This document shows, piece by piece, positions 2,233 to 38,116 of a stretch of DNA of 39,377 nucleotides. The position numbers and the translations under genes are program-made. The notes below the pieces were generated by a model. It was not told the origin of the DNA. It searched no databases and worked only from the letters and a program-made list of their open reading frames with translations. Source of the stretch: Chloroflexota bacterium. GTDB taxonomy: Bacteria > Chloroflexota > UBA6077. The DNA lies in NCBI GenBank assembly GCA_021845945.1, contig JAJZRD010000008.1:1-39377 (forward strand). The letters run 5' to 3'. Numbering within the stretch: position 1 is the stretch's first letter; the number at the start of each line of letters is the position of its first letter.

Positions 2233-2288
2233 TGCGGGAGGGCGAGCCTCCCGGCGAGCCGGCTCAGCAGGAGCTTCGCCCTCCCGCA
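2233..2288. repeat. Repeat family D, copy 1 (GCGGGAGGGCGAGCCTCC hairpin)
   Basis: A 56-base imperfect palindrome with outer arms TGCGGGAGGGCGA and TCGCCCTCCCGCA and inner arms GCGAGCC/GGCTC. Copies with the same arms but different loops lie at 6491-6564 and 9183-9258. It sits between two convergent genes. Confidence 0.85.
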
Positions 2289-2327
2289 CTGTGACCGCGT
2301 CCGTGAACCATCCCGAGTGCTGAGTCC

Positions 2328-3477: not shown

Positions 3478-3571
3478 CCTTTCCCTCTGGGAGAGGGAGA
3501 TTCGAGCCCTCACCCCGACCCTCTCCTCGAGAGGAAGTAGCTGCACACTGAGAACTCAGAACTCAGAACCT
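3478..3571. repeat. Repeat family C followed by family A
   Basis: CTTTCCCTCTGGGAGAGGG, then GAGCCCTCACCCCGACC and CTCTCCTCGAGAGG, form the family C hairpin. Tandem GAGAACTCAGAACTCAGAAC (family A-like) follows. They separate the acetyltransferase remnant from the MtaA/UroD-like gene. Confidence 0.65.
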
Positions 3572-6490: not shown

Positions 6491-6564
6491 TGCGGGAGGG
6501 CGAGGCTCCCGCCGAGCCATGTTCCGATGCATGGGTGGCTCGCCAGGAGGCTCGCCCTCCCGCA
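6491..6564. repeat. Repeat family D, copy 2
   Basis: A 74-base palindrome with the same outer arms as at 2233-2288 (TGCGGGAGGGCGA / TCGCCCTCCCGCA) and a longer centre. It lies between the phosphohexomutase and manA genes. Confidence 0.85.
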
Positions 6565-6587
6565 GTGTCGCCGACGGTGCCAGCGGA

Positions 6588-8172: not shown

Positions 8173-9156
8173 CTACTTGTTGGCCGACAGGGTCTCCCGC
8201 CACCAGTTGAGGGTGTCCGTGAGGGTGCGTTCCAGGGGTATCTCCGCCTTCCAGCCCGTAAGCGACCGGAACTTGCCGCAGTCGGCGACTATCCGCGGGA
8301 TGTCGGAGGGGCGAAGCCGTTCGGGATCCTGTTCGATCCCCAGGGAGATCCGGCTCTGGGCCAGCAGCAGGTCGAGCAGCCGGCGTATCGATACCGCTCG
8401 CTCGCTCCCCAGGTTGTAGACGTCGCCGGGCACTCCCAGTGTCACCGCCAGGTGGTAGCCCCGGACGATGTCGCGGACGTCGGTGTAGTCCCGCTCGGCC
8501 TCCAGATTGCCCACCTTGAGAACGGCCGGCCTCAGGCCCAGCTCGGCCTCGGCTATCTGGCGCGCGAAGCTGGAGGCCACGAACCGGTCGCTCTGGCCGG
8601 GACCGATGTGGTTGAAGGGTCGGACGCGAACGATGGGTAGGTCGTAGGCCAGCTGGTACTGGTAGCCCAGCAGGTCCTGGCCCACCTTGCTGACGGCGTA
8701 GGGGTTGGCCGGACGGAAGGGGGTGGTCTCCTTGACGGGGAGATCCCCCGGCTCCACCATCCCGTATTCTTCGTTGGAGCCCACGACCATGATGGTAGGC
8801 CGTCCTCCCCAGGCCAGAACTGCCTGGAAGAGGTTCACCTGCCCGACGATGTTGTTGACGAGGGTGCCGGTTGGATCGGCGAAGGCGGTGGGTACGAAGG
8901 CCTGGGCAGCCAGATGAAAGATCCAGGTGGGCTGCACCCTTTCCACGATCTCGCGCATCCGGTCGGTCTCCATCAGGTTGCCGATCAGAACCTCGAGTCT
9001 GGGGCCCAGCTCTGCCTCGACGTCGGCCGTCGGTTCGCCCGGGCGGGCGATGCCGTAGATCTTGGCCGTGGTGGTGGTGGCCAGATACCTGGCCAGGTGC
9101 TTTCCCACGAAGCCGGCCATTCCTGTGATGAGGGCCCTGGGTTCAGTGTGCGTCAC
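8173..9156 (-). CDS. GDP-mannose 4,6-dehydratase / GDP-4-keto-6-deoxymannose reductase-like SDR
   Basis: 327 residues of the extended short-chain dehydrogenase family. The NAD(P) loop is ITGMAGFVGKHL, the active-site Y-x3-K is NPYAVSKVG, and the Ser of VVGSNEEYG completes the triad. RPFNHIGPGQ and the ERDYTDVRDIVRGYHLA segment are typical of the GMD/RMD group. These make GDP-4-keto-6-deoxy-D-mannose or reduce it to GDP-D-rhamnose. The sequence alone does not settle dehydratase versus reductase. It would follow ManA and the phosphomutase, but no mannose-1-phosphate guanylyltransferase is in the window. The GTG start has only a weak SD (GAAG). Confidence 0.85.
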   Translation of the reverse strand: MTHTEPRALITGMAGFVGKHLARYLATTTTAKIYGIARPGEPTADVEAELGPRLEVLIGNLMETDRMREIVERVQPTWIFHLAAQAFVPTAFADPTGTLVNNIVGQVNLFQAVLAWGGRPTIMVVGSNEEYGMVEPGDLPVKETTPFRPANPYAVSKVGQDLLGYQYQLAYDLPIVRVRPFNHIGPGQSDRFVASSFARQIAEAELGLRPAVLKVGNLEAERDYTDVRDIVRGYHLAVTLGVPGDVYNLGSERAVSIRRLLDLLLAQSRISLGIEQDPERLRPSDIPRIVADCGKFRSLTGWKAEIPLERTLTDTLNWWRETLSANK

Positions 9157-9182: not shown

Positions 9183-9258
9183 GTCGGGAGGGCGAGCCTC
9201 CCGGCGAGCCACGTGTCCACCTCGTAAGGCGGCTCGGCAGGAGCCTCGCCCTCCCGCG
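9183..9258. repeat. Repeat family D, copy 3
   Basis: A 76-base palindrome with arms CGGGAGGGCGAGCCTCCC.. and ..GGAGCCTCGCCCTCCCG. The loop differs from copies 1 and 2. It lies between metK and the GDP-mannose gene. Confidence 0.85.
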
Positions 9259-9291
9259 GGACGTTCAACCGCCCCCAACCAATGGTAGCTG

Positions 9292-10589: not shown

Positions 10590-10628
10590 AGCCATCAGCT
10601 ATCAGCCAGAAGCTGATGGCTGATGGCT
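10590..10628. repeat. Repeat family B between ahcY and metK
   Basis: Tandem/inverted units of the CAGCTATCAGC type (GCCATCAGCTATCAGCCAGA then AGCTGATGGCTGATGGCTC), forming a hairpin in the 62-base gap. Related runs lie at 13773-13802, 19222-19268 and 19609-19680. Confidence 0.7.
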
Positions 10629-15824: not shown

Positions 15825-15847
15825 ATCGCCGGCAGGAGCCGGCTCCT
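15825..15847. repeat. Repeat family F, copy 2, carrying the mfd stop codon
   Basis: The same palindromic unit as at 507-532. On the minus strand it starts with TAGGAGCCGGC, and the TAG is the mfd stop. Nothing else is recognised between mfd and apt. Confidence 0.7.
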
Positions 15848-18800
15848 ACAGGGTTCGGCTTCCCGCTGTTGTCGCTTGCTCCCGCGCACCATGCACAGCC
15901 TGGGCCTCTTGCCGCAGCTCCTCCAGCAGATCCTGAAGCAGCGGCATCCAGCCGTCGCCCCGACCGCGCTGAAGCCGGATCTGGTTGGGGAGGACCCTCA
16001 GCCGAGAGCCGTGATGGCGCTGCAGCCTTCCCCGCACCGTGAGGGGTATCCCCTCCAGCTTCACCAGGATCTCTCCCTCCAGGGTGGAGATGGACTTGAT
16101 CCCGATGCGGGACGCCAGCAGCTTGACGTTCAACAGGTAGAAGAGGTTCTGGGCTTCCACGGGCAGCGGGCCGAAGCGATCCTGCACCTCCTCCAGCAGC
16201 CCGCCCAGCTCCTCCTCCTTCGCCAGGGCTGCCAGCCGCTGGTAGAGGCTGAGCCTCGCGGCATCGTCCACCACGTACTCCTCCGGCAGGTGGGCCGGCA
16301 GCGGCAGATCGACGCTCACCTGCGGCTCCACCGGCGCGGACTGCTTGCCCTGGAGCTCGGCCACAGCCTCGGCCAGCAGCCGGGTGTACAGGTCGAACCC
16401 CACGGCGTTGACCTGTCCGTGCTGCTCCACCCCCAGCAGGTTGCCGGCACCTCGGATCTCCAGGTCCTTCATGGCGATCCGGAAGCCGGATCCGAGCTCG
16501 GTGTTCTCGAAGATGGTCTTCAGCCGCTTTTCGGCCGTTTCGGTCAGCTGCTTGCTCCGGTTGTACAAGAAGTAGCCGTAGGCGCGGTTGGCCCCTCGCC
16601 CCACACGGCCTCGCAGCTGATACAGCTGGGCGAGGCCGAAGCGGTCCGCCTGGTTCACCACTATGGTGTTCACGTTGGGGATGTCCAGACCCGACTCGAT
16701 GATGGTGGTGCACACCAGGACGTCGTGCTGTCCCTCGGCGAACTCCATCATCACCCTCTCCAGCTGCTCCTCCGGCATCTGGCCGTGGCCCACCACGATG
16801 CGTGCCTCGGGCACCAGCCTCTGGATGTGACTCGCCACGAAGTGGATGTTGTGCACCCGGTTGTGCACGAGGTAAACCTGTCCGCCCCGGTCCATCTCCC
16901 GCAGGATTGCCTCCCGCACCAGGCTGTCGCTGTGCTCCGCCACGAAGGTGCGGATCGGTAGCCGGTCCTCGGGCGGCGTCTCCATGGTGCTCATGTCCCG
17001 GATCCCGGACAGCGCCATGTGGAGGGTCCGGGGGATAGGGGTGGCGCTCAGAGTCAGCACGTCCACTCGCTGGCGCAGCTGCTTCAGCCGCTCCTTGTGC
17101 ATCACCCCGAAGCGCTGCTCCTCGTCCACGATCACCAGCCCCAGCTCTTTGAACTGGACGTCCTTCTGGATCAGCCGGTGGGTGCCGATGCATATGTCGA
17201 CGGCGCCCGCCCGCAGCCCCTCCACCACCTGCCTCTGCTCCCTATCGGAGCGGAAGCGGGAGAGCACCTCCACGTTGACCGGGAAGGGTCCCAGCCGCTC
17301 CCGGAAGGTGTTGTGGTGCTGCTGGGCCAGTACCGTGGTCGGCACGAGCACCGCCACCTGCTTGCCGTCCATCACCGCCTTGAAAGCAGCCCGCAGCGCC
17401 ACCTCCGTCTTTCCGTAGCCCACGTCGCCGCAGATCAGCCGGTCCATGGGTCGGGCCGTCTCCATGTCGGCCTTCACCTCCTGGATCGCCTGAAGCTGGT
17501 CCGGCGTCTCCAGGTAGGGGAAGGAGGACTCCAGCTCCCCCTGCCAGGGCGAGTCCGGCGGGAAGGCGTAGCCCGACTGGGACTGGCGGGCCGAGTAGAT
17601 CGCCAGCAGCTCCTTGGCCACGTTCCGCACGGAGTTCCTGACCCGCTCCTTGGCCCGAGTCCAGTCGGAGGTGCCCAGCCTGCTGAGGGCCGGCCTCTCC
17701 TCGCCGGCCCCAACGTAGCGGGAGACCCGGTCCACCTGGTCGACGGGGACGTACAGCTTGTCGGCCTCAGCGTACTCCAGCAGCAGGTACTCCCGTTCGC
17801 CCGCCTCGGTGGACATCTTCTGGAGGCCCAGGAAGCGGCCGATGCCGTGCTCCACGTGGACGGCCATCTCCCCCTCCACCAGGTCGCTCAAGAAGGCTTC
17901 CCGCGGGGCGGCACGGCGGCGCACCACACGGTGGACCTTGGTCCAGCCGAAGATCTCGGCGTCCCCCAGCACCACGACCCCCAGCGCCTCGCTGGACCAG
18001 CCGTGGCGCAGGGAACCCTGGACCAGGTGGAGACCCGGCGCCGGTGTCTCCGAGATCGCCTGCTCCGGCACGATGGAGCGGTCCTTCTCCTCGGCCAGCA
18101 GGTCGGCCAGCCTCTCGCTCTGCTGGCTGACCAAGACAACCAGGTGCTGAGTGCTGGGTGCTGAGTGCTGGGTGCTGAGTGCTGGGTGCTGAGCAGCGGA
18201 CTTCTCACCCCACCCCTCTCCCCTCCCCGCTGCGGGGAGGGGCCGGGGGAGAGGTCTGCTCCCCGTCTCCCCGTCTCCCCGCCTCCCGCTCACCCCGTCG
18301 GCGAGGGCCAGAGCCTCGTCCAGGACGAGCGGCAGCCTGCCGCCGTAGCTGGGCGGCGCGGTGAAGGGGAGCTCCAGGGCCTCCGGGTCGTAACGCATCT
18401 CCATCAGAGGCCAACCGCCGGCCTGGGCGGAGGCGTAGAGGCTCCCCCACTCGTGGAGCGCCGGCGGCAAGCCGCTCGGGATCTCTGCCCGCTCCACGGC
18501 CTGCCACTGCAGGTGGGTTGCCTGCTCCAGCAGATCGTCCCCCACGGCCGCGATCTGGGCGGGATCGTCCAGCACGAGCAGCCCCCCTTCGGGCAGGTAG
18601 TCGAGGAGGGTGCTGTGGCCCAGGAACCCCCGGTAGAAGCCCAGGGAGGCGCAGGCCTGCCCCTCCACCAGCAGGTCCAGCTCCCTGGCGAGGGTCTCCT
18701 GCGAGGCGGGCGAGCAGGCGGACAGATCCAGCGCCCGCAGCCGCGATCGGGTCTCCTCGTCGGCGGGAGGGAGCACCTCGTGGGGTGGGGTGATCTCCAC

Positions 18801-19607
18801 CTCCTCCAGGCGATCCACCGAGCGCTGGGTGGCCGGATCGAAGGCGCGAATCGACTCGATCTCGTCTCCGAACAGCTCGATGCGGAAGGGAGTGGGGCTG
18901 CCCGGCGGGTATACGTCCAGGATGCCGCCCCGGCGGCTGAAGCTGCCCGGCGTCTCCACGACGCTCGCCGGTTCGTAGCCCATCTCCACCCACCGCTTCA
19001 GGGTAGCCTGGAGCGGGAGCCGCCGCCCGGCCCGCAGCCTTTGCACCGCCCGGCTCAGCTCCTCGGGGGACATCACCCGCTCCATCATCGCCCGCCCGCC
19101 GGCGACCACCACCAGGCCGGTGCTGGGTTCCAGCTCCCTCTCCCCCTGGGAGAGGGTCGGGGTGAGGGCTCGTGCGAACTGCCGAGTGCTGGGTGCTGAG
19201 TGCTGGGTGCCGGCGGCTGGTGGCTTATGGCCGATAGCTGACGGCTGATAGCTGATAGCTGATAGCTCGCGCATGGCGAACAGTCGTGCCGCCGTGGCGG
19301 TTGGGTCGGCGGGCATGCGCTCGTAGGGCAGGGAATCGGGCTCGGGGAACAGCAGCACCCGATCGGGATCGGCCGACCAGAGGGCGATCTGCTCCTGCAG
19401 CTCCCGGGCTCGGCCCGGCCGGGCCGTCACCACCAGGATGGGCACGCCCAGCCGCCGCTGGAGGGCGGCCAGCAGGTAGGGCTTGGCGCCCTCGGCCATG
19501 GCCAGGGCAGCAGGATCCCTCCGGCCCAGCCGCTCCAACAGGGATGCAAGGCCGGGCCATCGGTCTATCAGGTCGAGCAGACCGTGCAGACGAAGTGTAG
19601 TTTCCAT
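15846..19607 (-). CDS. mfd: Transcription-repair coupling factor Mfd, with in-frame repeat insertions
   Basis: 1253 residues. It frees RNA polymerase stalled at lesions and recruits UvrA. In order: a UvrB-like N-terminal module, the polymerase-interaction domain (MAVHVEHGIGRFLGLQ near 582), a RecG-like translocase with Walker A GDVGYGKT near 726-733 and DEEQRFGV near 825, helicase motifs ending RGRVGRGANRAYGYF, and the C-terminal TRCF domain. It is about 100 residues longer than E. coli Mfd (1148). Two blocks account for this: residues ~114-160 and ~437-488, which translate short intergenic-type repeats (ISYQPSAI, TQHSAPST, LTPTLSQGERE). Both lie in the N-terminal half and keep frame, so the motor is intact. 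No SD precedes the ATG, because a family B repeat abuts it. The stop lies in a family F repeat. Confidence 0.95.
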   Translation of the reverse strand: METTLRLHGLLDLIDRWPGLASLLERLGRRDPAALAMAEGAKPYLLAALQRRLGVPILVVTARPGRARELQEQIALWSADPDRVLLFPEPDSLPYERMPADPTATAARLFAMRELSAISYQPSAIGHKPPAAGTQHSAPSTRQFARALTPTLSQGERELEPSTGLVVVAGGRAMMERVMSPEELSRAVQRLRAGRRLPLQATLKRWVEMGYEPASVVETPGSFSRRGGILDVYPPGSPTPFRIELFGDEIESIRAFDPATQRSVDRLEEVEITPPHEVLPPADEETRSRLRALDLSACSPASQETLARELDLLVEGQACASLGFYRGFLGHSTLLDYLPEGGLLVLDDPAQIAAVGDDLLEQATHLQWQAVERAEIPSGLPPALHEWGSLYASAQAGGWPLMEMRYDPEALELPFTAPPSYGGRLPLVLDEALALADGVSGRRGDGETGSRPLPRPLPAAGRGEGWGEKSAAQHPALSTQHSAPSTQHLVVLVSQQSERLADLLAEEKDRSIVPEQAISETPAPGLHLVQGSLRHGWSSEALGVVVLGDAEIFGWTKVHRVVRRRAAPREAFLSDLVEGEMAVHVEHGIGRFLGLQKMSTEAGEREYLLLEYAEADKLYVPVDQVDRVSRYVGAGEERPALSRLGTSDWTRAKERVRNSVRNVAKELLAIYSARQSQSGYAFPPDSPWQGELESSFPYLETPDQLQAIQEVKADMETARPMDRLICGDVGYGKTEVALRAAFKAVMDGKQVAVLVPTTVLAQQHHNTFRERLGPFPVNVEVLSRFRSDREQRQVVEGLRAGAVDICIGTHRLIQKDVQFKELGLVIVDEEQRFGVMHKERLKQLRQRVDVLTLSATPIPRTLHMALSGIRDMSTMETPPEDRLPIRTFVAEHSDSLVREAILREMDRGGQVYLVHNRVHNIHFVASHIQRLVPEARIVVGHGQMPEEQLERVMMEFAEGQHDVLVCTTIIESGLDIPNVNTIVVNQADRFGLAQLYQLRGRVGRGANRAYGYFLYNRSKQLTETAEKRLKTIFENTELGSGFRIAMKDLEIRGAGNLLGVEQHGQVNAVGFDLYTRLLAEAVAELQGKQSAPVEPQVSVDLPLPAHLPEEYVVDDAARLSLYQRLAALAKEEELGGLLEEVQDRFGPLPVEAQNLFYLLNVKLLASRIGIKSISTLEGEILVKLEGIPLTVRGRLQRHHGSRLRVLPNQIRLQRGRGDGWMPLLQDLLEELRQEAQAVHGAREQATTAGSRTL
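18142..18300. repeat. In-frame composite repeat block inside mfd (families E, C and A)
   Basis: About 159 bases. They contain CCCCGTCTCCCCGTCTCCCC (family E), a CCCTCTCCCC..GGGGAGGGG hairpin (family C type) and seven GTGCTGA/GTGCTGG heptads (family A). The minus-strand translation reads GRRGDGETGS..PLPAAGRGEGWGEK..ALSTQHSAPST and has no counterpart in Mfd proteins. It separates LVLDEALALAD from LVVLVSQQSERLADLL, which would otherwise be nearly contiguous. Confidence 0.85.
19128..19268. repeat. In-frame composite repeat block inside mfd (families C, A and B)
   Basis: About 141 bases carrying family C (CCCTCTCCCCCTGGGAGAGG then GTCGGGGTGAGGGC), family A heptads (19187-19210) and family B (AGCTGATAGCTGATAGCTGA, 19222-19268). 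The translation ELSAISYQPSAIGHKPPAAG..TLSQGEREL replaces a short linker between ATAARLFAMR and STGLVVVAGGRAMMERV. The length is a multiple of three and no stop is introduced. Confidence 0.85.
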
Positions 19608-19608
19608 C

Positions 19609-19680
19609 GATCAGCTATCAGTTCTCAGCAGTCAGCAGTCAGCCACCGTGTTGAGGCTGACGGCTGACTGCTGACTGCTC
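19609..19680. repeat. Repeat family B between pth and mfd
   Basis: CAGCTATCAGTTCTCAGCAG, TCAGCAGTCAGC and the inverted GCTGACGGCTGACTGCTGAC fill the whole 76-base gap as a long imperfect hairpin. It leaves no visible ribosome-binding site for mfd. Confidence 0.75.
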
Positions 19681-22800: not shown

Positions 22801-22842
22801 CCTTCTCCCTCTCCCCTTGGGAGAGGGTCGGGGTGAGGGCTG
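22801..22842. repeat. Repeat family C between two glycosyltransferase genes
   Basis: CCTTCTCCCTCTCCCCTTGG followed by GAGAGGGTCGGGGTGAGGGC. It is the same element that, translated as LTPTLSQGERE, sits inside mfd at 19128-19170. Here it lies in the ~220-base gap between the two glycosyltransferase genes. Confidence 0.75.
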
Positions 22843-24549: not shown

Positions 24550-24652
24550 GCCTCTCCCTCTGGGAGAGGCCGCCCGAAGGGCGGGTGAGGGCTGCTTCGA
24601 CGCTTGCGACCAAGCCCTCACCCTGACCCTCTCCCAGAGGGAGAGGGGATCA
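24550..24652. repeat. Repeat family C, paired copies in inverted arrangement
   Basis: GCCTCTCCCTCTGGGAGAGG plus CGGGTGAGGGC on one side, and CCCTCACCCTGACCCTCTCC plus CAGAGGGAGAGGGG on the other. They fill the gap between two convergent genes and could form a long hairpin acting as a bidirectional terminator. Confidence 0.75.
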
Positions 24653-34335: not shown

Positions 34336-37300
34336 CTACCAGTTCAGCTTGCTCAGCTTCCGCACGTATGCGAAGGTGTCGCGGTTGACGCCGATGGGAC
34401 CCCAATAGTTGAAGGCGTAGGTGAACTGGGCATAGCCTCCTGCCATCAGCACCGGGTTCAACCGGATGCGGGTGAGGCTGTTGTGGGTGCCGGCCCGTTT
34501 GTTCCCCCGCAGCGGCGACTTGGGGACCGAGATGGTGCGCTCCGGCGCGTGGTAGAAGAAGGCCGTGCCCCTCGGTATGCGGGCGCTCACCACGCACCGC
34601 GTCACCACCACGCCGTTGTCGTTGTACACCTCCACCCAATCGTTGTCCCGCACCCTCAGCGCCTCGGCGTCTCGATCGTTCAGCCAGAATGGCTCCACCC
34701 CTCGGGACAGGGTCAGCATCCGGTGGTTGTCCATGTAGGTGGAGTGGATGTGCCACTTGCCGTGAGGGGTAAGCACGTTGACCAGGAGGGCGCTTCGGTC
34801 CACCTGGCTGTTCTCCATCTCGTTCAGAACCAGCGGGCTCGCCTTGGCCTTGTAGGTGGGCAGCTGCTCCCCGAACTCCAGGTACAGCTGGTGGTCCAGG
34901 TAGAACTGCTGCCGCCCCGTCAGGGTGCGCCAGGGGACCAGCCGGTCCACGTTGAGGGCGAAGCCGGTGTAGGCCCGGCCGTCGTTGACGATCCCCGACC
35001 AGCAGGGGCTGGTGAGGAAGCGGCGGGGCTGGTCCACCAGGTCGGCGAAGCTGTACCGGACCCCCCGGTACTTCTCGGCCAGATCTGTGAGGGGCAGACC
35101 CACCTTCGCCTCCTCCTCCTTGAAGGCCCGATAGGCCACCTCTCCGTTGGTCTCCGGGGCCAGCAGCAGGATTGCGTTGGCCGCGTCCACCACCTCCGAC
35201 AGGGAGGGGTATCGCCGCCCGTCCCACTCGACGGTGGGGGACTGGGCAAGCATCTGATCGTACAGATCGTCGACCTTCCAGCGGATCCCGTGGGCGCCGA
35301 TGCCCGCCGCCCGGACCGTCGGACCCAGGGAGATGAAGCGGTTGTAGAGGTTGGCGTAGTCCCGCTCCACCACCGACATCCAGGGCATGGTCTTGCCGGG
35401 GATGGGTGCGCACTCCCCCTTAGCCCACTCCCTGATCTCCGGCTGGGCGATCTCGTCGGGTGTGTCGTGGGCCAGGGGCGTGCACACCAGGTCCTTCACC
35501 GGATCGGGCAGGTGGGTCTGGGCGAGCTCGGATACCTTCTTGGCGATGGCTTTGAAGATCTCCCAGTCGCTCTTGGACTCCCAACATGGGGGCACCGCCT
35601 CGCCCAGGTTGTGGACGTAGGAGTGGAGGTCGGTGGTGTTCAGGTCGTTCTTCTCGTACCAGGTGGCGGCCGGCAGGACGATGTCGGAGTAGAGGGCGGA
35701 GGTGTCCATCCGGAAGTTGAGGTCCACCACCAGGTCGATCTTCCCCTTGGGGGCCTCGGGCCGCCACACTACCTCCTCGACCTTCCCCTCGGCCAGCGCC
35801 AAGGGCCACGGCGTTGGAGTTGGCGTCCAGGTAGTGGCGCATGAAGAACTCGTGGCCCTTGGCGCTGGCCATCAGGGCGTTGCCGCGCCAGATGAACCAG
35901 AGTCGGGGCCAGTTCTCCGGGGCGTCCGGGTCCTGGACCGCGAAGCGCAGCGGCGACGGGGAGACGGGATGACTGGGCGACGGGGAGACGGTTTCCTCTC
36001 GCCCCGTCTCCCCGTCGCTCTGTCGCCCCGTCTGGAGCTGCTGCACCACCCAATCCACGACCTCCTGGTCGGTCTGGGCGCCGGCCGCTGCCGCCTGCTG
36101 CACCAGCTCCAGGGGACTGCGGTCGAACTGGGGGTAGGAGGGCAGCCAGCCCATCTGCACCGCCTTCACCTGCACGTCCATGGTGTGCCCCCTGGCGTAC
36201 CGGCCGCCCGGCGGCACCGTGTGGTAGGCGGTGAAGTCGCCCTCGTAGCGCCACTGATCGCAGTTGACGTAATGGAAGGAAGGGGTGTTCTGCTGCCTGG
36301 GGGGCTTGACCCAGTCCAGGGCGAAGGCCAGGGTGGACCAGGACGCGAAGGGCGCCACCTTCTCCTGGCCGACGTAGTGGTTCATGCCGCCGCCGTTCTT
36401 GCCCTCGCAGCCGCACAGCATCAGGGCCGTCATGGCGGAGCGGTAGATCAGGTTGCTCTGGTACCACTGGTTCACGCCGGCGCCCACGATGATCATCGAC
36501 CGGCCCTCGGTGCGCTCGGCGTTGCCGGCGAACTCCCGGGCGAAGTGGATCACCGTCTGGCCGTCGATGCCGGTGAACTTCTCCTGCCAGGCGGGGGTGA
36601 AGGGGACGTCCTCCTCGTAGCCGGTCGGGTACTCCCCGGGCAACCCCCTGGAGACCCCGAACTGGGCCATCATCAGGTCCAGGACGGTGGCCACCGCCAC
36701 CCGACCCTGCTCCGTCTCCAGGTACTTCACCGGCACGCCCCGGGCCGGAGGCTCGCCGTCGCCGAACTCCGTGATCCGGACCGGCAGGATGGCGTCTTCA
36801 TGGCCCAGCAGCGACAGGGCGGGGTCTATGGGGGAGCCGTCGAGGCCGTCCTCGTGCTGGAGGTTCCAGCCGCCCTTCTCGTGGCCCCAGCGGAAGCCTA
36901 TGCTCCCCCTGGGCATTCGGAGGTCGCCGGAGAGGCGATCGTAGACCAGGAACTTCCAGTCGCCGTTCTCCGCATCCCGGTAGCGGGCCAGGGACTTTGC
37001 GCGGAGGAGCCGATCCGGTCGATAGGTGGCTCTGGCGCTCCAGCCCTCACCCCGACCCTCTCCCATGGGGAGAGGGAATCCGTCCCCACCCGCTCCCTCT
37101 GGGTGAGGGTGTTTGCCGTCCGCCGACCTCTCGGGTCGCAGAGTCACCAGGAAGGAGCAATCGGTGTAGCGCTTCAGGTAGTCCAGGAAGTAGGGGACCT
37201 GCCGGTCGACGTAGAACTCCTTCAGGATGACGTGGTTCACGGCCATCCAGAAGGCGCCGTCCTGGCCGGCGCTCACCGGCAGCCACCAGTCGGCGTACTT

Positions 37301-38116
37301 GGACACCTGGCTGAAGTCGGGCGATAGCACCACCAGCTTGGTCCCGTTGTGGCGCGCCTCGGCCACGAAGTGGACGTCCGGCGTGCGGGTCATGCTCAGG
37401 TTGGCGCCCATCACCACGATGTACTTGGAGTTGTACCAGTCGGCGCTCTCGCAGACGTCGGTCTGCTCGCCCCACACCTCCGGAAAGGCGTTGGGCAGGT
37501 CGGCGTACCAGTCGTAGAAGCTGAGGACCGTCCCTCCGATCAGGCTGAGGAAGCGGGAGCCGGCGGCGTAGCTGAGCATCGACATGGCCGGGATGGGGGA
37601 GAAGCCCACCACTCTATCCGGGCCGTGGCGCCGGATGGTGTAAATGGTGGAGGCGGCGATCAGCTCCAGCACCTCGTCCCAGTCGGTCCGGCGGAAGCCG
37701 CCCTTGCCTCGGGCACGCTGGAAGCTGGACCGGGCCGCCTCGTCCTCCATGATGGAGGCCCAGGCCTCCACCGGGTCGGCGTGCCGGCTCCTCGCCTGCC
37801 GCCACAGATCCAGCAGAACGCCGCGAGCGTAGGGATACTTCACCCGAAGGGGGCTGTAGATGTACCAGGAGAAGGAGATGCCCCGCTGGCACCCCCTGGG
37901 CTCGTAGGGGGGAAGCCCGTCCCCCAGCTTGGGGTAATCCAGGGCCTGGTTCTCCCAGGTGACGATGCCGTCCTTGACGAAGACGTTCCACGAGCAGCCT
38001 CCGGTGCAGTTCACCCCGTGGGTGCTGCGCACCGTCTTATCGTGCTGCCAGCGGTTCCGATAGAACTCCTCCCAGCTGCGCTCGCCGGGGCTCAGGATGT
38101 CCTTGATCCAGCTCAT
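34336..38116 (-). CDS. narG: Respiratory nitrate reductase alpha subunit, with an apparent frameshift and two in-frame repeat insertions
   Basis: Catalytic Mo-bisMGD subunit reducing nitrate to nitrite. The FS0 cluster ligands H33-C37-C41-C76 ([21 protein letters not shown]) keep E. coli spacing. Asp202 in [10 protein letters not shown] matches Mo ligand Asp222. No Tat signal is visible, so a cytoplasmic site is likely. The frame from 38116 is lost at 35803-35805: removing one C of a CCC run joins NAVA to [13 protein letters not shown] and restores about 1259 residues. Two translated repeats (residues ~330-359 and ~695-722) are extra; without them the length is about 1200, usual for NarG. Strong SD (AAGGAGGGGG). 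ATGA overlap with narC. If the frameshift is real, the enzyme is dead. Confidence 0.92.
35803..35805 (-). other. Apparent +1 frameshift in narG
   Basis: On the minus strand the reading GCCGTGGCCCTTGGCGCTGG needs one C deleted from CCC to give A-V-A-L-A-L-A-E and continue in the conserved NarG frame. Upstream, the frame is conserved to [12 protein letters not shown]. Downstream, conservation resumes at [21 protein letters not shown] homopolymer miscount or a genuine mutation are both possible. Confidence 0.85.
35951..36034. repeat. In-frame repeat block inside narG (family E)
   Basis: CGGCGACGGGGAGACGGGAT, then a second GACGGGGAGACGG and the inverted GCCCCGTCTCCCCGTCGC. It translates on the minus strand as [20 protein letters not shown].. 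between [10 protein letters not shown] and [16 protein letters not shown], which NarG proteins join by a short linker. The same GGGGAGACGGGGAGAC unit is inside mfd at 18258-18292. Confidence 0.8.
37040..37128. repeat. In-frame repeat block inside narG (family C)
   Basis: CAGCCCTCACCCCGACCCTC, TCCCATGGGGAGAGGGAATC and CTCCCTCTGGGTGAGGGTG. The minus-strand translation [21 protein letters not shown] lies between LVTLRPE and [14 protein letters not shown], where NarG normally has no such sequence. The block keeps frame. Confidence 0.8.

Follow-up and report, generated by a model that had tools for sequence, protein, structure and literature searches.

Dispersed short repeats as the probable origin of two in-frame, putatively unstructured loops in Mfd of a Chloroflexota bacterium

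How did two blocks of short repeated DNA come to lie in frame within mfd, the gene of the transcription-repair coupling factor, in a Chloroflexota bacterium? We analysed this locus in a stretch of 39,377 nucleotides (assembly GCA_021845945.1, contig JAJZRD010000008.1, positions 1 to 39,377; hereafter the window). Sequence comparison and a structure model make it highly probable that both blocks are dispersed DNA repeats that entered the gene and survived as translated, unstructured loops. The evidence comprises presence or absence of the blocks in near relatives, the identity of the repeats, disorder in the model, a strand and frame bias, and likeness between the two loops in some species. The gene, the blocks and their parts are as follows.

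15846-19607, minus strand: mfd, transcription-repair coupling factor, 1253 residues (Pfam UvrB_inter, CarD_TRCF_RID, DEAD, Helicase_C and TRCF; matches to Mfd structures in the PDB)
19113-19262, minus strand: block 1, a 50-residue insert (residues 116-165) in a helix-to-strand loop (alignment, repeat scan, model)
19239-19266, minus strand: GCTATCA heptads of block 1 (shuffle test)
19186-19213, minus strand: CAGCACT/C heptads of block 1 (shuffle test)
19136-19167, minus strand: palindrome half-element CCTCACCCCGACCCTCTCCC of block 1 with a hairpin, translated LTPTLSQGER (fold within shuffles, z -0.43)
18141-18299, minus strand: block 2, a 53-residue insert (residues 437-489) in a second helix-to-strand loop (alignment, model)
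18257-18288, minus strand: octad array GGGGAGAC of block 2, translated GRRGDGETG (repeat scan)
18207-18255, minus strand: G+C-rich hairpin of block 2, translated RPLPRPLPAAGRGEGWGE (fold of 18200-18256, z -3.61)
18144-18192, minus strand: heptad array of block 2, translated QHPALSTQHSAPSTQH (repeat scan, shuffle test)
19607-19674, no strand assigned: spacer directly upstream of mfd, rich in heptads of the GCTATCA and CAGTCAG types (sequence, repeat scan)

Along the coding strand, block 1 runs from GCTATCA heptads through CAGCACT/C heptads to the palindrome half-element, and block 2 from octads through the G+C-rich hairpin to CAGCACT/C heptads, with seven near-perfect 7-base units. Alignment and the reading of open reading frames (ORFs) bear out what the initial annotation, made from the letters of the window, had described: two repeat blocks that are open and in frame, with encoded peptides that include ALTPTLSQGER and HPALSTQHSAPSTQH (translation of the DNA). 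Its figure of about 100 added residues also agrees with our count, 50 and 53 residues in the window Mfd against 12 and 4 in a short relative (P0008, 1154 residues). The limits it gave for block 2 (18142-18300) are nearly kept, and those for block 1 (19128-19268) give way to 19113-19262 in the alignment. Two details had to be corrected: the unit listed as AGCTGATAGC is a heptad, GCTATCA on the coding strand, and the hairpins are not a single family present in both blocks, that of block 2 being a different palindrome from that of block 1.

The same kinds of repeat also lie between genes. In the window, the heptad pair has 10 matches (overlapping ones counted) against 0.16 expected from dinucleotide shuffles, the GCTATCA pair 8 against 0.07 and the palindrome half-site 6 against 0.06, and all three occur outside mfd in intergenic positions:

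2183-2197, no strand assigned: intergenic heptad pair GTGCTGAGTGCTGG (repeat scan, shuffle test)
3507-3527, plus strand: intergenic palindrome half-site (repeat scan, shuffle test)
10591-10627, no strand assigned: intergenic GCTATCA-type heptads, inverted pair (repeat scan, shuffle test)
22801-22839, no strand assigned: intergenic palindrome half-element (repeat scan, shuffle test)
24550-24647, no strand assigned: intergenic pair of palindrome halves in the layout of about 100 bp seen in the related genome G476 (repeat scan)

That the families of the blocks are also intergenic, as had been proposed, holds for heptads and palindrome; the octad recurs within the window in narG instead, and in G476 it is found between genes as well. 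Tandem 7-base units occur at multiple places in the genome, as in known heptad tandem repeats.

An AlphaFold2 model of Mfd residues 1-585, based on 38 aligned sequences, reached a mean predicted local distance difference test (pLDDT) value of 84.9, and its best Foldseek matches are Mfd structures (6ac6), followed by UvrB. In the model, block 1 links helix 102-119 to strand 166-170 and block 2 links helix 425-437 to strand 489-494. Values below 50 fall at residues 122-130, 132-144, 148-158 and 444-484, and near the cut C-terminal end (562-565 and 583-585), while ten-residue stretches over the helices and strands flanking both inserts average 88-96. That is, both loops are modelled as disordered.

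Alignment with close relatives, proposed as a check in the initial annotation, revealed that the blocks form no conserved domain: their residues are not conserved among these proteins, and the homologous loops hold other repeats in other species. A protein search with the window Mfd gave 1241 matches, and the best 120, which were listed, begin with the protein of the window itself (P0002) and 14 relatives (P0003-P0016) whose identity is 67-94%, after which identity drops to about 51%. Named sources among the 14 are Chloroflexota metagenome-assembled genomes (MAGs; P0012 and P0016); P0007 is labelled Sphingomonadaceae, which is taken to be a mislabelling. A further clade member (L092, 73% identity) was found in genome G476 among 400 genomes of the phylum. 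No second one besides G476 was detected in 29 genomes of its class, no mfd locus above 61% (best segment) among the best 80 of 596 matches in a scan of genome contigs, and none above 64% in a set of 393 genomes from one Chloroflexota class (E cut 1e-280).

Loops of at least 18 residues were present at site 1 in 9 of 13 evaluable close relatives (15 counted; P0012 and P0016 are cut or incomplete there) and at site 2 in 7 of 15; among the 105 more distant Mfds listed (P0017-P0121), the counts were 7 and 1. Most long inserts comprise the same families in varying amounts, recognizable as STQHSAL and ITHHSSL (heptads), GRRGDGET (octads), and PLPxGEGxGEG and HPDPLP (palindrome). P0003, 97% identical to the window Mfd (P0001) in the alignment, keeps block 1, differing at 2 of its 50 residues, but lacks block 2, at whose site it has 8 residues. 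Since this short loop (FGQFKSRT) is similar to those of P0005 (EGQANHI) and P0012 (QGQTKQLA), the comparison suggests that block 2 was gained by P0001. On a quick tree of 21 rows, from which the columns of both sites were left out and in which one scored row, L095, is an outgroup, length class changed at least 5 times at site 1 and at least 7 times at site 2. For the clade of 16 rows alone the minimum is 4 and 6; 6 of the 18 inner branches are weakly supported, so that the true minimum may be lower.

In other Chloroflexota, site 1 takes different repeats. Besides its own locus, the L018 insert of 46 residues (8238-8375; Dehalococcoidia MAG) has five matches in the genome that carries it, two in that of L030 and none in that of L015; one of the two L030-genome matches is by position L030's own 46-residue Mfd insert (870-1007; Dehalococcoidia MAG). 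Palindrome-like peptides were also seen at other Mfd loops in P0024, P0028 and P0110.

The second gene of the window with repeats in frame is narG, which carries two inserts:

37010-37123, minus strand: narG insert A, 38 residues, with palindrome element (alignment, repeat scan)
35951-36031, minus strand: narG insert B, 27 residues, with octads in both directions (alignment, repeat scan)

At site A, both the window and P0124 (99% identical, on another contig) have 38 residues, and three relatives, one of which reads PDTQHSAP, have 14; the median is 8 in 104 more distant rows, one of them with 34. At site B, seven relatives (P0125, P0126, P0128, P0129, P0130, P0132 and P0134) have 21-40 residues, most but not all of these inserts being plainly repeat-like, and other near rows have 3 or 7 (median 3, maximum 13 in the more distant rows). 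The gene itself apparently lies in two overlapping frames (35420-38116 and 34336-35802) with a shift near 35800. Since P0124 is 1259 residues long, the shift may be a sequencing error or a recent lesion.

Genome G476 was scanned in two parts, 1.05 Mb picked by contig number or size before any repeat scan, together with the mfd contig, and a further 1.18 Mb, chiefly contigs already known to bear the palindrome element. The total of 2.23 Mb contains 1984 called genes and is 87.3% coding. Eight loose patterns gave 114 clusters in part one, some of them chance matches (80 intergenic, 24 in genes, 10 at edges). Palindrome clusters numbered 88 in the total, 46 of them intergenic, 32 inside genes and 10 across a gene end (19, 11 and 4 in part one alone). 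The palindrome element is rarer in genes than expected from the coding share, yet about one third of the copies lie inside them. Searching all of G476 with the site-1 Mfd copy, with 40 of 146 first-look candidates scored, yielded 83 matches, among them partial and reverse ones. Of 20 copies retrieved with their flanks, most are an inverted hairpin pair that spans about 100 bp and includes a variable spacer of some 25 bp; 7 of the 20 are in called genes (one of them, L186, near a start that may be wrong), 4 at edges and 9 intergenic. Aligned with the two Mfd copies, they make a set of 22, in which at least 3 of the 20 dispersed copies are cut or diverged at one end. Most show by eye terminal inverted repeats like those of a miniature inverted-repeat transposable element (TTCCCTCTCCC ... 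GGGAGAGGGA, with variants).

The two loops of one Mfd can resemble each other. In G476 the Mfd copies are 98% identical over 85 bp (90% for the next long copy among those scored) and share a spacer (AGCCGAGAAGG and neighbours) that by eye is in none of the 20 other copies. This identity and the unique spacer make copying between the loops likely, one having probably been copied from the other. Ten species were entered in a comparison of site 1 with site 2, six with long inserts at both. Within-gene likeness summed to 420 against a permutation mean of 250 and was reached by 9 of 720 permutations; P0001, P0010 and L092 exceeded the shuffled maximum of 47.

Folding was stronger than in shuffles for the block 2 hairpin and for the G476 element (z -4.52). 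Hairpin strength as a selected property was nevertheless rejected, the block 1 hairpin and the narG element (z -1.18) folding no better than shuffles. A further repeat family, of the CGGGAGGGCGAGGCTCCTGCCGAGCC type, has three intergenic copies in the window (2235-2297, 6493-6573 and 9185-9267) and 13 clusters in 1.05 Mb of G476, none of them inside called genes. One Y1 transposase gene of G476 (L154 1372-1947) lies between an inverted pair of GTAGGGCGGGGGCTTGTCCCC, GTAG-type repeats, and resembles a REPtron.

Repeats also occur in frame in other genes of G476. Its LivM-LivG linker holds 98 residues in the order octad-palindrome-heptad, and that of P0245-P0251 58-77 residues of the same repeat kinds; this linker is long anyway, since more distant rows have a median of 40 residues. 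A near-identical palindrome composite is shared by LivM-LivG and a Proton_antipo-domain protein of the NADH-quinone oxidoreductase type (G476:C10:111634-111798 and C6:13193-13357), so that composites seem to move as units. We scanned 24 repeat-bearing G476 genes against Pfam, the clearer cases and a subset of in-gene matches, with Mfd left out. Most encode transporters, membrane proteins or metabolic enzymes; one encodes DNA polymerase III alpha. By our own reading of domain limits, the repeat lies between two domains in 8 of the 24 (LivM-LivG, two ABC exporters, CobB/CbiA, radical SAM, molybdopterin oxidoreductase, BcrAD-DUF2229 and FTCD); in the other 16 it is within a domain span, past the last domain, ahead of the first, or could not be placed. 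Linker placement is thus common, not universal. A phage portal gene of the SPP1 type (L251 6866-8311) also has a palindrome-like stretch in frame.

Strand and frame of the in-gene repeats are skewed. Read in the sense direction, the heptads CAGCACT, GCTATCA and ACTCATC have no stop in any of the three frames, and in the antisense direction each of the three is closed by one; the variant CAGCACC and the octad leave all six frames open. Heptad arrays of at least 21 bases in genes are sense in 17 cases and antisense in none, with 48 such arrays outside genes; short in-gene arrays, chance matches included, are sense in 26 cases and antisense in 14. The long ones are spread over 14 genes, three of the arrays being in the window mfd, and 12 of the 17 are separated from either gene end by 60 bases or more; the others are near an end, where called limits may be wrong. 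The earlier statement that the mfd blocks keep frame and avoid stops is correct in that both are open, but stop avoidance is partly automatic, because the three heptads are open in every sense frame.

A second bias concerns the palindrome. Half-elements in genes, two from the window included, read PLPxGEGxGE in 20 of 34 cases (5.6 expected with open frames equal) and LSLRERVRVR in one (6.9 expected). Whole pairs in genes use the Pro/Gly/Glu-rich frame 1 in 9 of 10 cases (2.8 expected), whereas intergenic pairs, read in both directions, have 9 of 32 open readings in that frame and 21 in the other main frame (binomial p 8e-5 for in-gene against intergenic use). The narG element of the window is in the Pro/Gly/Glu-rich frame and that of mfd block 1 in another. 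The octad lies upstream of the heptad in 11 of 12 pairs within 300 bp (G476 and window; two share one octad), that is, in 7 of 7 in genes and 4 of 5 outside. Many of the octad matches span 16 bases and include up to 3 mismatches, and octad direction differs inside and outside genes. Block 1 breaks the octad-palindrome-heptad order, its heptads preceding the palindrome.

These observations can be joined into a route by which the loops might have arisen. Heptads and palindromes that pair into an element of about 100 bp lie between genes, as do octads in G476, which are also in mfd and narG. From there the repeats may have spread, heptads and octads by slippage and palindromes by transposition or copying, entering genes at random. 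Purifying selection would then explain why survivors keep frame and run in the stop-free strand and frame, and why they tend toward a surface loop or linker and a mostly polar peptide rich in Pro, Gly, Glu and Ser. A loop once seeded could gain, lose and exchange further repeats, since repeats supply homology, and repeat-guided recombination would be the route of build-up. The nested insertion suggested at first is borne out only in part: composite blocks do exist, yet some of the accumulation has the look of composites copied ready-made. The function of Mfd is probably unaffected. A wider picture, which we put forward tentatively and regard as somewhat doubtful, is that dispersed repeats are a standing source of linkers in this lineage. 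Seeded loops would take up more repeats, often in the order octad-palindrome-heptad, and copy composites between loops within a gene or from gene to gene, filtered for one peptide chemistry, and loop sequence would evolve faster than, and independently of, the protein core.

Several points weigh against our reading of the blocks as dispersed repeats that entered mfd. Translation of the blocks is a prediction from the DNA, and the P0003-P0016 comparison was made on protein sequences. P0001 and the more distant P0006 share the octad-palindrome-heptad order at site 2 and the residues LVVLV after it; with block 2 absent from P0003, this makes it possible that an ancestral block 2 was lost there or swapped between lineages. 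Loop likeness does not rise above the shuffled maximum in P0006, P0013 and P0015, that is, in 3 of the 6 species. Gene limits in G476 come from our own simple gene caller, and about 6 of the 32 in-gene palindrome clusters look by eye like chance matches in ordinary coding sequence. Because scoring in the genome-wide search for the element covered 40 of 146 first-look candidates, a nearer relative of the Mfd copies may have been overlooked. No target-site duplication is evident in the flanks of the aligned copies, which were inspected by eye only. The frame test has 10 pairs, two of them the G476 Mfd copies (8 of 9 with one dropped), and a preference of insertion for certain codon phases could give the appearance of a frame filter.

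What else might the blocks be? A genuine lineage-specific Mfd domain, or a binding peptide kept by selection, would account for the many close relatives with something extra at one of the two sites and for the conservation of block 1 between P0001 and P0003. However, length and sequence vary wildly among species, some of which, like P0008, have no insert; the same motifs recur in NarG, in LivM-LivG and (heptads and palindromes) between genes; and the loops are disordered in the model. This explanation is strongly disfavoured and highly improbable. Misassembly or misbinning of repeats into mfd deserves scarcely any credence. Assemblers do fail at repeats, and the window narG has a frameshift; yet P0003 carries block 1 and P0124 both NarG inserts on other contigs, which makes the artefact, already raised as an objection in the initial annotation, unlikely, and the 14 listed close Mfd relatives, from separate contigs, are open through the sites covered.

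Phase-variable repair, with 7-base slippage switching Mfd off and on by frameshift, appears very unlikely to us. Gain or loss of one of the block 2 units would indeed shift the frame, but the arrays are short and interrupted, similar ones occur in transporters and metabolic genes, and the clade proteins were found in frame; the last is weak evidence, because a protein search would not readily show shifted alleles. The remaining alternative is a version of the spreading step, in which a RAYT-type transposase moves the palindromes as non-autonomous transposons and the remaining repeats travel along with them. A dispersed element of about 100 bp with inverted ends and four Y1 transposase genes in G476 speak for it; on the other side, the palindrome lies within 1.5 kb of none of the four, one of them has a GTAG-type repeat at its flanks instead, and no target duplication was seen by eye. 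We consider this mode of spread rather unlikely.

Several known repeat systems resemble the present case, and the comparison with Rickettsia palindromic elements (RPEs) made in the initial annotation is apt as a likeness of features. Heptanucleotide short tandem repeats, for their part, are exemplified by the cyanobacterial STRR. Both lineages, Rickettsia and ours, have a dispersed palindromic repeat inserted in frame in many unrelated ORFs, here in relatives and G476 (two genes in the window itself); nearly half of RPE copies lie in ORFs of unrelated genes (PMC10969869). Our case, in Chloroflexota hosts, differs in that a single block combines heptads, octads and palindromes and that insertion has recurred at homologous loops in several species. 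RPEs form ten families, and the likeness to them is one of features. Intragenic GTAG/CGTC REPs, often as dimers, have been described in coding genes of several species, many in repair genes and several in uvrA, uvrB and recB (Di Nocera et al. 2013, PMC3733652). That paper also places recB REPs at roughly the same position in two Xanthomonas species and reports GTAG repeats in Chloroflexi, and it already suggests harmlessness or neutrality in flexible linkers or loops; 'mfd' and 'transcription-repair' are absent from its main text. Our palindrome differs from these REPs: by eye no GTAG/CGTC tag stands at the ends of the 22 aligned copies, it flanks none of the four Y1 transposase genes of G476 (within 1.5 kb), and repair genes, as favoured targets an idea raised in that paper, were not seen as such among the 24 genes scanned.

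In enterobacteria, RU/ERIC repeats are short mobile elements translated within genes, with a frame-shifted second reading, RU-1f (Delihas 2007, PMC2759123). The examples in the sections cited here are mainly fusions at one gene end, and these sections do not describe recurrence at homologous loops. TAACTGA heptanucleotide tandem repeats are dispersed 7-base units, some in ORFs (PMC4679880); their unit sequences differ from ours, where long in-gene arrays run only in the stop-free direction. Searches of the open-licence literature, one of them aimed at Mfd, turned up no report of in-frame repeats either in this protein or in proteins of Chloroflexota. New here are the several families per block, the recurrence at homologous loops of several genes and species, and the measured frame bias.

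The mfd blocks thus offer a replicated, testable case of repeat DNA turned protein sequence. It involves the same loops across several genes and species, and near relatives include both short loops and filled ones. The blocks turn the earlier idea that linkers tolerate intragenic repeats into measurable filters of strand, frame, peptide chemistry and fold position. They also call for caution, as LTPTLSQ, PLPxGEGxGEG and STQHSAL peptides in metagenome proteins are repeat-derived and not domains. In this little-known group of Chloroflexota, genome clutter appears to become protein linkers.

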